Source: Companilactobacillus formosensis
GTDB taxonomy: Bacteria > Bacillota > Bacilli > Lactobacillales > Lactobacillaceae
Reading direction: 5' to 3'
Assembly (NCBI RefSeq): GCF_005405305.1
Contig: NZ_BJDU01000001.1
Span: forward strand, 308,791 to 372,790
DNA length: 64,000 bases
Shown: positions 35,258-38,265 of the stretch, piece by piece
How positions within the stretch are numbered: the first letter of the stretch is position 1
How the letters are laid out: each line of letters opens with the position of its first letter
The notes under the pieces: model-generated
Database searches by the model: none
Seen by the model: only the letters and a program-made list of their open reading frames with translations
Told to the model about the DNA's origin: nothing
Program-made: the position numbers and the translations under genes

Positions 35258-37012
35258 TTAGACCATTTGCTCATTAACATATTGAGCATACAATTTATGA
35301 CCTTGCATGAGCTGTTGGTGAGTTCCGTGTCCAGTTATTTGGCCATGTTCAATGAAGTAAATTTGATCTGCATCAACGATTGTTGAAAGTCGATGTGCGA
35401 TAACTAAAGTAGTGCGACCGACCATCAATTGATCCAAAGCACGCTGAACTTTTTCCTCGGATTCTGAATCAAGACTGGCTGTGGCTTCATCTAACATTAG
35501 AATCTTAGGATTGCGCAAGAAAGCACGAGCAATAGCAATTCGTTGTTTTTGACCGCCGGATAGTTTTACACCTCGTTCACCAATTTGTGTATCCAATTGT
35601 TCAGGAAAATTAGATACGAATTCTTTGGCGTAGGCTAATTCTAATCCATGCCACAATTGTTCATCAGATAGTTTTTCATCCAAACCGTATTGTAAGTTGT
35701 CACGAATACTACCAGCAAAGACGGCGCTGTCTTGAGAAACGTAACCAATTTGTGATCGCCAATTATTTAAATCAATTTGCTTGATGTTATCTTTACCAAT
35801 GAATATCTCGCCACCGTCAGGTTGGTAAAATCTTTCTAGTAGTGAAAAGATAGTCGATTTACCACCACCAGATGGTCCGGCAAAGGCAATCACCGTATTA
35901 GGTTTAGCTTCAAAAGAGACATCTTGCAAAATGGGATGCTTGGGGTCATAACTGAAGTCCAGATGCTGAGCATTAATTGTTTGCCCTTCGGCATCTAAAA
36001 CTTTACCTTGAGTGTTTTCGGGTTCAGTATTTAGTATTTCTTGGATTCTTTCTGTGGAACCCATGGCCTTTTGAACTTGTGAGAAGAATGTTGCAAAACT
36101 AGCAACTGGGGTAATGATGTTGAATAAATATAATAGGAAGGCTACTAATGAACCACTAGTCAAAGTTCCTTGTTGAATTCTGACAGCTCCGTATCCTAAA
36201 ATACCGACAAAAATTCCTAACATTACAGTCGTCATAATGGGTTGGAGGACAGCTTCAACTTTGGCGTCTTTGATACCAACTTTAAAAATTTTATTGATTA
36301 GATTGCCACCAGTTTGTTTTTCAAATTGTTCGCCATTGCTGGATTTGATCAATCTTACTTCGGATAATTTTTCGCTAGCATCGGCATTGAAGTCAGCTGT
36401 AGCAGCTTGCAATTTTCGCCCTAGTCGTGACATGATTCGACCAATTGGCAAGAGAATCAAGACAATAATTGGAACGATACTGAACATTAACGCTGCCATT
36501 TTCCAATCCATGAAAAAGAGAATGATCATTGAACCGACTAATTGAATAGCACCGGTGATGAAGTTAGGAAATTGAGAGGTAATCAAATCTTTGATAACGC
36601 TAGTATCGTTAACTAAACGAGAACTACTTTCACCAGACTTGTGATCATCAAAATAATCAACTGGCAATTTGAGTAGATGCGCCCAAAGTTTCTCACGCAA
36701 TGTTTTAACAGAACTTTCGCCAACAAAACGTAGAATGTAGCCGCCGATTGTGCCAAAGCCTAATTGGATTATGAAGGCTAGAATTAAGACCGCCAACATT
36801 TTACCGTCAATTTTTGACAGTCCGGAAGTATCAACTAATCCTTTGGTCAATTGTGGCACAATCAAGCTTGCACCACTAGTAACTAAACTTAAGAGCAGTC
36901 CTATTATAAATAATGATTTTTTCGGATTGACGCTGTTAATTAGTTGAAGAAAATTTTTGAAATTGAATTTAGAGCTTTTAGGTAAATCTTGTCTGATTGC
37001 AGGATTGCGCAT
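35258..37012 (-). CDS. ABC multidrug-type exporter, half transporter
   Basis: Type IV ABC exporter with six membrane helices (residues about 28-310) fused to one ATPase domain. Visible motifs are Walker A AGPSGGGKST near 365, Q-loop IGYVSQD, signature LSGGQKQRIAIARAFL and Walker B ILMLDEATASLDSESE. It probably works as a homodimer, as in LmrA/BmrA. I choose ATG 37012 (584 residues), eight bases after GAGG; ATG 37018 lies only two bases from that site. The gene is 19 bases after the MarR regulator and shares its promoter. The substrate is unknown. Confidence 0.92.
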   Translation of the reverse strand: MRNPAIRQDLPKSSKFNFKNFLQLINSVNPKKSLFIIGLLLSLVTSGASLIVPQLTKGLVDTSGLSKIDGKMLAVLILAFIIQLGFGTIGGYILRFVGESSVKTLREKLWAHLLKLPVDYFDDHKSGESSSRLVNDTSVIKDLITSQFPNFITGAIQLVGSMIILFFMDWKMAALMFSIVPIIVLILLPIGRIMSRLGRKLQAATADFNADASEKLSEVRLIKSSNGEQFEKQTGGNLINKIFKVGIKDAKVEAVLQPIMTTVMLGIFVGILGYGAVRIQQGTLTSGSLVAFLLYLFNIITPVASFATFFSQVQKAMGSTERIQEILNTEPENTQGKVLDAEGQTINAQHLDFSYDPKHPILQDVSFEAKPNTVIAFAGPSGGGKSTIFSLLERFYQPDGGEIFIGKDNIKQIDLNNWRSQIGYVSQDSAVFAGSIRDNLQYGLDEKLSDEQLWHGLELAYAKEFVSNFPEQLDTQIGERGVKLSGGQKQRIAIARAFLRNPKILMLDEATASLDSESEEKVQRALDQLMVGRTTLVIAHRLSTIVDADQIYFIEHGQITGHGTHQQLMQGHKLYAQYVNEQMV

Positions 37013-37031
37013 AAACATTTCCTCGTTTTAA

Positions 37032-37697
37032 TTAGTATTTAAAACCGTTCCAGAAATCTTGACGAAAATCTGGACGGCGACCGTGGTGTTCATGGTGATC
37101 TCGTGGCATGCAATGATTGAAAGGTGAGTGACGCATATGTTCACGCATTTCATGACGCATGTGTTCGATATCCTCGGGGGTCATTTTGTCACGCATATCC
37201 ATCATTTGTTCACGCATATTGAGCATGGCCTGGTAACGATCAGTTGGATCGATGAATTTTTCAGAATTTTGTTTGAAATCATCGTCCCAACCCTCGGAAA
37301 TCTTTTTGAGATAATCACTGAAATTGACTTTTTCTTCATCGTTTAAGCCAGCCAAAAAGGCTTCACTGTAATTCTCATTTTTGAGAGAGGCGTTATCTTC
37401 GGCTTTTTGGCGACCGGCATCAGTTAAGTAAATCAGTTTACTGCGTTTGTCGTGTTCATCTTCTTTACGAATGATGTCGCCATTGTTTTCCATTTTCTTC
37501 ATCAATTCAGCGATTGAGCTTGGACTCAAATCCAAAATTTCACGTAAATAATTTTGAGTGAGACCATCGCCTAATTTCAAAACAGCTAGGACTCGTTGTT
37601 GTCCTGTAAGTTTTTGCTTCTTTTGACTCATGTAAAAATTGGCAGCCTCACTGATAAAGCGTAGTTGTTTCATTAAATCATCTGTTAAGTTACTCAT
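37032..37697 (-). CDS. MarR-type repressor with His/Met-rich tail
   Basis: A winged helix of the MarR type spans residues about 5-145 (QQRVLAVLKLGDGLTQNYLREILDLSPSSIAELMKKMENNG, read as adjacent helices, then the wing KRSKLIYLTDAGRQKAE). Residues about 160-221 form an unusual tail with about ten Met and nine His (DIEHMRHEMREHMRHS, then DHHEHHGRR). The tail might bind metal or a hydrophobic cation. It is the first gene of an operon with the exporter. Two inverted palindromes lie over its promoter, which points to autorepression. Confidence 0.88.
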   Translation of the reverse strand: MSNLTDDLMKQLRFISEAANFYMSQKKQKLTGQQRVLAVLKLGDGLTQNYLREILDLSPSSIAELMKKMENNGDIIRKEDEHDKRSKLIYLTDAGRQKAEDNASLKNENYSEAFLAGLNDEEKVNFSDYLKKISEGWDDDFKQNSEKFIDPTDRYQAMLNMREQMMDMRDKMTPEDIEHMRHEMREHMRHSPFNHCMPRDHHEHHGRRPDFRQDFWNGFKY

Positions 37698-37720
37698 ATT
37701 AAAATCCTCATTTCTATTAA

Positions 37721-37777
37721 TTTGTTTCGGTACCGAACTTTATTACGGAAACTAGTATAGTTCGGTACCGAAACAAA
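37721..37777. promoter_or_regulatory. Paired inverted MarR operators over the promoter
   Basis: TTTGTTTCGGTACCGAACT (37721-37739) and its exact inverse AGTTCGGTACCGAAACAAA (37759-37777) each hold the palindrome TTCGGTACCGAA. Centres are 35 bases apart. On the - strand the promoter is TTGACA (37783-37778), an 18-base spacer filled by one operator, and TATACT (37759-37754); the other operator lies downstream of the start point. This is a strong autoregulation layout. Confidence 0.92.
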
Positions 37778-37809
37778 TGTCAACTATTTTCTTTCAGAAA
37801 TTAAAATTA

Positions 37810-37842: not shown

Positions 37843-37857
37843 TAGTAAAAATTACTA
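37843..37857. promoter_or_regulatory. Zur-box-like operator
   Basis: TAGTAAAAATTACTA is a 15-base inverted repeat. It matches 11 of the 14 defined positions of the Firmicutes Zur box TCGTAATNATTACGA. It covers the start point of the cysteine-free S14 gene. Repression of such genes by Zur in zinc-replete cells is established in Bacillus and other bacteria, so the match is functionally sensible. Confidence 0.7.
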
Positions 37858-37872
37858 TTTAGGGAGAATTAA

Positions 37873-38142
37873 ATGGCTAAAAAATCAAAAATCATTAAAA
37901 ATCAAAAGCAACAAGAACTAATTGAAAGATATGCAGCAGTACGACAAGAATTAAAGGCCAAGGGTGATTACATTGGTTTATCCAAACTGCCTCGTAATTC
38001 TAGTCCGGTTCGTTTAAAGAATCGTGATGCAATTGACGGTCGTCCACACGCTTATATGCGTAAATTTGGGATGTCCCGTTTGAACTTTAGAAAGCTAGCT
38101 CACGCCGGTCAAATTCCCGGTGTGAAAAAGGCTAGTTGGTAA
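37873..38142 (+). CDS. rpsN2: 30S ribosomal protein S14, zinc-independent paralogue
   Basis: An 89-residue S14 of the C- type. [20 protein letters not shown] at the start, [20 protein letters not shown] in the region where the zinc ribbon would be, and [11 protein letters not shown] at the end. There is no cysteine anywhere. It can replace the zinc-binding S14 encoded at 1275-1460 when zinc is scarce, which releases zinc. ATG 37873 follows AGGGAG. A 37-residue protein gene follows after nine bases. Confidence 0.96.
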
Positions 38143-38151
38143 GGGGAAATT

Positions 38152-38265
38152 ATGGAAAAAATGAATGTAGCAACAGCTTATCGCAATTTAAAAAGTCCCA
38201 ATTTGAGGACTAGAAAGAGAGCTTTACGAGCTATTAAAGATAGTAAAAAGAAACCTGTGAAGTAA
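38152..38265 (+). CDS. Small basic protein, putative metal-homeostasis family
   Basis: A 37-residue, lysine- and arginine-rich protein, MEKMNVATAYRNLKSPNLRT and onward to KKKPVK. ATG 38152 follows AGGGGAAA, nine bases after the S14 paralogue. Short proteins of this look (AYRxLKSPNxRTRKRAL) occur in lactobacilli and enterococci and are often labelled putative metal homeostasis proteins. I recall that label from memory and have not checked it. Co-transcription with a Zur-like regulated gene supports a link to metal limitation. Confidence 0.7.
   Translation: MEKMNVATAYRNLKSPNLRTRKRALRAIKDSKKKPVK

Follow-up and report, generated by a model that had tools for sequence, protein, structure and literature searches.

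The window, by which we mean the whole 64,000-nucleotide stretch of Companilactobacillus formosensis DNA that was analysed, holds a MarR-family gene followed on the same strand by an ABC exporter gene, with a divergent S14 gene on the other side of the MarR promoter. The features of the locus are listed below by their position in the window.

35258 to 37018, minus strand: ABC exporter gene of the BmrA/LmrA type (586 aa), with Pfam ABC_membrane and ABC_tran matches
37032 to 37697, minus strand: MarR-family repressor gene, an ORF of 221 aa with a Pfam MarR_2 match
37720 to 37778, no strand assigned: whole inverted-repeat region, with exact 20-base inverse copies at 37720-37739 and 37759-37778
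37726 to 37737, no strand assigned: putative operator 2, TTCGGTACCGAA, downstream of the -10 element and 35 bp from operator 1
37754 to 37759, minus strand: -10 element TATACT (TATA(A/C)T in relatives)
37761 to 37772, no strand assigned: putative operator 1, TTCGGTACCGAA, within the -35/-10 spacer
37778 to 37783, minus strand: -35 element TTGACA (TTGACA or near variants in most listed relatives)
37873 to 38142, plus strand: S14 (rpsN2-like) gene, 89 aa, divergent from the MarR gene
38152 to 38265, plus strand: 37-residue ORF matching the NCBIfam model 'putative metal homeostasis protein' (RsaX20_sORF; 58.6 bits, cut-off 30)

A gap of 13 nt separates the MarR stop codon from the exporter ORF, and upstream of the MarR gene TTGACA and TATACT are separated by an 18-bp spacer. 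The initial annotation had described two exact inverse copies of a 19-base element in this promoter, one in the spacer and the other downstream. We confirmed both the copies and their placement, with the correction that each is 20 bases long; the arms reach 26 nt at 92% if mismatches are allowed. The two copies look like mirror images because each holds a perfect 12-bp palindrome, TTCGGTACCGAA, which has no other exact match in the 2.47-Mb genome. Allowing up to one mismatch adds two single sites (L044 and L045), both within coding sequence; this is chance level, since a reversed control pattern gives 3 at the same tolerance. Within the window, two-mismatch sites showed no significant excess (3 versus 1.46 expected, with 17 of 100 shuffles reaching 3). 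The case for an operator rests on the exact pair, its position in the promoter and its conservation. A palindromic operator predicted to overlap the MarR gene's own promoter is an arrangement that marks the MarR family. No Rfam family matched at its gathering threshold between 35000 and 39500.

The MarR protein has a core of about residues 1–149, a predicted helical Met-rich tail (150–190) and a predicted disordered His/Arg-rich end (191–221). Its match to PF12802 (MarR_2; E 1.2e-7, 32.2 bits versus a cut-off of 27) identifies a MarR domain; PF01047 gave 24.4 bits, just under its cut-off of 24.6, and MarR folds ranked top in a structure search. The MarR protein of genome G011 is 95% identical to it.

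The best solved match of the exporter was BmrA (residues 15–585 aligned, E 1.4e-174), and its NBD matched 1mv5, which we take to be LmrA, at E 6.9e-110. Exporters encoded by plasmids of beer bacteria, presumably HorA, share about 52% identity with it. By these matches the exporter is a single-chain TMD-NBD protein of the BmrA/LmrA type, and multidrug exporters are what it resembles best. BmrA of Bacillus subtilis, LmrA of Lactococcus lactis and HorA of beer lactobacilli plasmids belong to the same exporter family; unlike them, the present group is chromosomal and has its own adjacent MarR regulator. There was no adjacent MarR gene at the one Listeria exporter-homologue region examined.

We compared 81 loci: 78 named ones, that of the window and one from each of two near species. 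Sites of the type TTnGGTACCnAA, which is looser than the type used in the tail-length survey, were counted before the MarR gene. At least two were present in 75 of the 81 loci, one in 5 and none in 1; where there were just two, they lay 31–37 bp apart, mostly 35 or 36. A BmrA/LmrA-type exporter gene was directly downstream of the MarR gene in 71 of the 81. An overlapping set of 41 loci, which holds one genome twice (L030 and L041), gave at least two sites in 39, one in L036 and none at two mismatches in L040. Of 395 genomes of the order, 9, among them the window's own, carry the strict exact pattern TTGACA-site-site; its reversed control came to 0 among the matches listed. Three of the seven genus genomes in that sample match the strict pattern and the other four carry at least one altered site. 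These conservation counts are inflated and not independent, because the species are related.

The outer flanks of the two operators within a species were also compared, with shuffled flanks as the control. The match was 3.72 of 5 bases versus 2.81 in 29 Companilactobacillus loci, and 2.95 versus 2.21 in all 73 loci that remained after 8 of the 81 without exactly two sites were dropped (0 of 2000 shuffles reached the observed value in either set). No excess was found in 28 Enterococcus loci (262 of 2000 shuffles reached the observed value) or in 11 Lactobacillus loci (1442 of 2000). The flank match carries no weight in our conclusions, since species kinship weakens it.

An rpsN2 homologue lies near the MarR gene in 17 Companilactobacillus loci and one Enterococcus locus (L073). 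We considered a metal link through the S14 gene and the 'metal homeostasis' ORF and rejected it as a general feature, given that S14 is near in only these 18 of 81 loci. As a separate observation, a palindrome, TAGTAAAAATTACTA, stands at 37843–37857, upstream of the S14 gene, and with at most one arm mismatch it is present in 6 of the 18 S14-bearing loci (the window, L002, L003, L046, L048 and L050). We take it to resemble a Fur/Zur-type box.

In genome G030 the regulator and the exporter are apart. Contig C23 carries the exporter gene, whose product is 83% identical, contig C26 carries the regulator gene, and each gene has an exact site pair of its own: 36 bp apart before the exporter start codon, with TATACT between, and 35 bp apart at the regulator. 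This split, with sites on both genes, is good comparative evidence that the putative operator controls the exporter.

Five further genomes (G011, G033, G016, G007 and G032) keep the regulator and at least one exact site, with a best exporter match of 30–32% identity. A close exporter homologue was missing in these 5 of the 10 Companilactobacillus genomes searched, a set that is not random because 6 of them, G030 included, were chosen for having a locus without the exporter. The exporter-less genomes count against a regulator that exists solely for the exporter. The regulator may have another role there, or the exporter may have been lost recently. A MarR gene with at least one operator and no adjacent exporter was seen in L046, L049, L091, L092 and L099 (C. 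futsaii, C. halodurans, C. furfuricola, C. zhongbaensis and C. versmoldensis). In C. futsaii, the gene that sits beyond the exporter in the window comes next after a MarR gene whose product is 95% identical, and the L091 contig ends shortly past the MarR gene. A further exact single site in G032 (L164) falls where no ORF of at least 60 aa is listed.

We consider it quite probable, on the sequence comparisons above, that the MarR protein is an autorepressor that also represses the adjacent exporter gene through two operators and is released by a ligand. Two repressor dimers would bind the palindromes TT(C/A)GGTACC(G/T)AA, one in the spacer and one just past the -10 element, and with both occupied the promoter would be shut. 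The repressor would then be released by a ligand, for which a toxic exporter substrate of lipophilic or cationic nature is the best candidate. What comparison shows is that the operator is conserved, that the two genes form a pair and that each has the operator where they have parted. DNA binding, repression, release and the identity of the ligand are what we infer. The earlier proposal of operators that control the ABC exporter is upheld as far as comparison reaches, together with control of the regulator itself, by the sites in 75 of 81 loci, the adjacent exporter in 71 and the split in G030. A cationic or hydrophobic drug, or heme, would suit this type of exporter better than a metal ion. 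The arrangement of operator and exporter is of a familiar kind; the conserved Met/His-rich tail is the unusual addition.

After residue 149 the window protein holds 9 His, 10 Met and 1 Cys. About ten Met and nine His had been placed in the last 60 residues; the nine His are there, with 8 Met and 1 Cys, but reaching 10 Met together with the 9 His takes residues 158–221. The crowding itself is confirmed: the best 60-residue window contains 20 H+M+C, compared with a maximum of 10 and a median of 6 in 289 background ORFs, which came from the window and 27 related loci and so are not genome-wide and repeat homologues. Across the 30 Companilactobacillus MarR proteins the same measure runs from 9 to 21 (clades follow the record titles, except that L058, a MAG titled uncultured Lactobacillus, was counted as Companilactobacillus by sequence). 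A search for homologues with the same tail next to exporters had been suggested, and a tail beyond the core, 55–138 residues long, is present in 81 of 81 loci, most of them with the exporter adjacent, but each clade has a different residue make-up there.

Mean His and Met fractions are higher in the tail than in the core in all four groups of loci. The tail means for His and Met are 0.078 and 0.145 in the 30 Companilactobacillus and 0.035 and 0.063 in 31 Enterococcus; in 14 Lactobacillus those for His, Met and Cys are 0.105, 0.056 and 0.042. None of the 81 cores contains Cys. The tail has at least one in 27 of 30 Companilactobacillus (exactly one in 26) and in 14 of 14 Lactobacillus, and none in 17 of 31 Enterococcus. 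Twelve of the 31 Enterococcus tails hold 0–2 His, all of them with an adjacent exporter. In Lactobacillus loci L101-L104, L106, L109-L114, L117, L118 and L123, which are presumably bee-associated, the tails are rich in Cys (2–7) and His (6–11), not Met, and most sites read TTAGGTACCAAA or TTAGGTACCTAA.

By position, Met is best conserved among 36 genus-level sequences at 158 (36), 172 (35), 184 (34), 166 and 188 (33 each), and less so at 161, 168 and 197. Across three clades, 73 of 75 sequences have Met at 184, including 14 of 14 Lactobacillus. Enterococcus (n = 31) has Met at 158 in 26 sequences and at 188 in 29, with Leu at 172 in 22. Most of the Companilactobacillus Met positions have another residue in the 14 Lactobacillus sequences (Met at 158 in 2, at 172 and 188 in 0), which have Met at 180 in 9. 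At position 205, His occurs in 14 of 30 Companilactobacillus and 10 of 14 Lactobacillus. Pooled dN/dS was 0.04 both for residues 150–190 and for the core, and 0.17 for the end, values that are approximate because they come from 19 hand-chosen overlapping pairs with dS saturated in several. Residues 150–190 thus appear, approximately, to be under purifying selection like the core. The ends of the tails are of low complexity and vary in composition between loci.

AlphaFold2, given 59 of the 81 proteins with the window's among them, predicted helices at 139–148, 151–171 and 174–189 beyond the core (mean pLDDT 67.5). Block pLDDT was 56–67 over 141–190 and below 50 from 189 on, so the tail model is of low confidence. 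We picture the tail as a conserved extra module, a predicted Met-faced helical stretch followed by a disordered His/Arg-rich end, which would most likely tune the response or the contact between two DNA-bound dimers. Such a role, whether tuning or cooperative, seems to us likelier than sensing, and a metal is a less likely ligand than a lipophilic or cationic compound.

The tail may have no sensing function at all. Its Met-faced helices could join two DNA-bound dimers or stabilise the dimer, while the disordered end would add solubility and nothing else. This concerns the tail alone and is compatible with a MarR autorepressor of the exporter; we regard it as possible, if somewhat short of an even chance. 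It accords with the occurrence of a tail in every locus alongside at least two sites in nearly all of them, with ends that differ in composition, and with residues 150–190 being constrained like the core. The promoter alone may fix the operator spacing, though, and there is no close member without a tail among the 81 loci.

In calmodulin or SRP54, helices rich in Met bind a variety of hydrophobic partners. The tail could likewise be a second sensing module, in which a Met-faced, flexible helical hairpin captures exporter substrates or soft metals and signals to two clamped operators. Lineages would then have swapped side chains for different chemicals (Met and His in Companilactobacillus, Cys and His in Lactobacillus, a smaller number of ligands in Enterococcus) while the operator type and the exporter stayed constant. 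We think this unlikely.

Sensing of copper, silver, zinc or a cationic drug by the tail had been suggested at the outset. As a metal or thiol sensor, the tail would use its Met, His and Cys to ligate a soft metal such as Cu(I), Ag(I) or Zn, which would alter DNA binding and thereby induce the exporter. The density of these residues above all 289 background ORFs, the His- and Met-enriched tails of all four groups with their His/Cys-rich version in Lactobacillus, the confinement of Cys to the tail and the recurrent His at 205 speak for it. Against it, no His position of the window is His in even half of the 36 genus-level sequences (the best reaches 16), 12 of 31 Enterococcus tails nearly lack His and yet keep the exporter, 17 of 31 lack Cys, multidrug exporters are the exporter's best matches, and the S14 gene is near in a minority of loci. 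Disordered metal-binding tails may keep their composition while positions shift, and for that reason the hypothesis is weakened and no more; we now judge it improbable. AdcR and ZitR, zinc-dependent MarR regulators, share the fold and are metal-sensing members of the superfamily. Identity with AdcR was rejected (NCBIfam equivalog NF038251, 23.3 bits versus a cut-off of 175), and we take the operator here to differ from the AdcR site.

Heme or a porphyrin, ligated by Met, His and perhaps Cys of the tail or core and removed by the exporter, would be sensed as in PefR; this too seems a poor prospect. PefR structures were the two top matches in the fold search (7dvu, E 4.7e-8; 7dvr, E 1.7e-7), but many other MarR proteins score close behind, and identity to PefR is 26% over the common MarR core. 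The genetic design is shared with pefRCD (PMC2858704). The heme ligands of PefR are His114 and the N-terminus, with no tail involved (PMC8044140).

PefR-PefCD of Streptococcus agalactiae and S. pyogenes is the closest functional precedent among the systems compared. There a MarR repressor in an operon with a multidrug-type ABC exporter is autoregulated and has two sites upstream of pefRCD (PMC2858704, PMC4837585), and repression, the two sites and relief by heme were shown by experiment (PMC2858704, PMC8044140, PMC4837585). The PefR-type operator, TAAAATAGTTCTCACGATAACTA, is absent from the promoter here when compared by eye with TTCGGTACCGAA. PefCD is a two-subunit exporter and the one here a single chain, the ligand of PefR is heme or porphyrin, and PefR chains in the PDB have 153–162 residues without such a tail, compared with 221 here. 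By analogy, the pair most likely works like PefR-PefCD and yet is not PefR, since operator, exporter make-up and tail differ.

LmrR belongs to the PadR type of regulator and LmrCD is built of two subunits, compared with a MarR-type regulator and a single-chain exporter here. What LmrR-LmrCD shares with our locus is a local repressor in control of a major multidrug transporter, in Lactococcus lactis of the same order (PMC5428041).

Tailed MarR proteins also occur elsewhere. A paralogue on an Enterococcus raffinosus megaplasmid (NZ_CP081847) is 39% identical over residues 1–176, is tailed and shares the promoter layout, there with three GGTACC palindromes. It differs in that its tail is not His/Met-rich, a GNAT gene follows it and a cation diffusion facilitator gene is divergent from it; a metal-sensing repressor gene and a MATE gene are nearby (L183:1081-4693). 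An Enterococcus faecium plasmid encodes a distant MarR protein with 26% identity and a Gly/Phe-rich end; its gene immediately precedes that of an exporter with 50% identity, and the stretch read before that MarR gene contained no GGTACC palindrome. A search of the class gave matches at E 1e-20 in 11 of 398 genomes, three of them from this order (G000, G038 and G046). In a different genus, four genomes have tailed MarR proteins before MATE-like genes (neighbours named by eye), and three of another genus have MarR proteins of 160–169 aa without a comparable tail. One class-search genome, from another family of the class, encodes a MarR protein of 290 residues whose long tail is rich in His and Gly (L172:1396-2268). 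From these sequences, a tailed MarR protein beside an efflux gene may be a recurring design.

We searched the open-access literature, with subscription papers mostly outside its reach, and found no dedicated MarR regulator of LmrA/BmrA-type exporters in Lactobacillales. The same literature gave matches to the operator sequence on animal subjects alone, one match for a metal-tailed MarR that was limited to a zinc-binding protein, nothing on a disordered MarR tail, and no title on a regulator-exporter pair for Companilactobacillus, MarR and ABC transporter together.

Exporters of the LmrA/BmrA type are models of multidrug transport, and a conserved local regulator whose operator is well defined offers a direct way to learn what induces them in nature. 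A tail that varies by clade on a similar repressor and exporter would let the grafting of new sensing chemistry onto MarR be tested.
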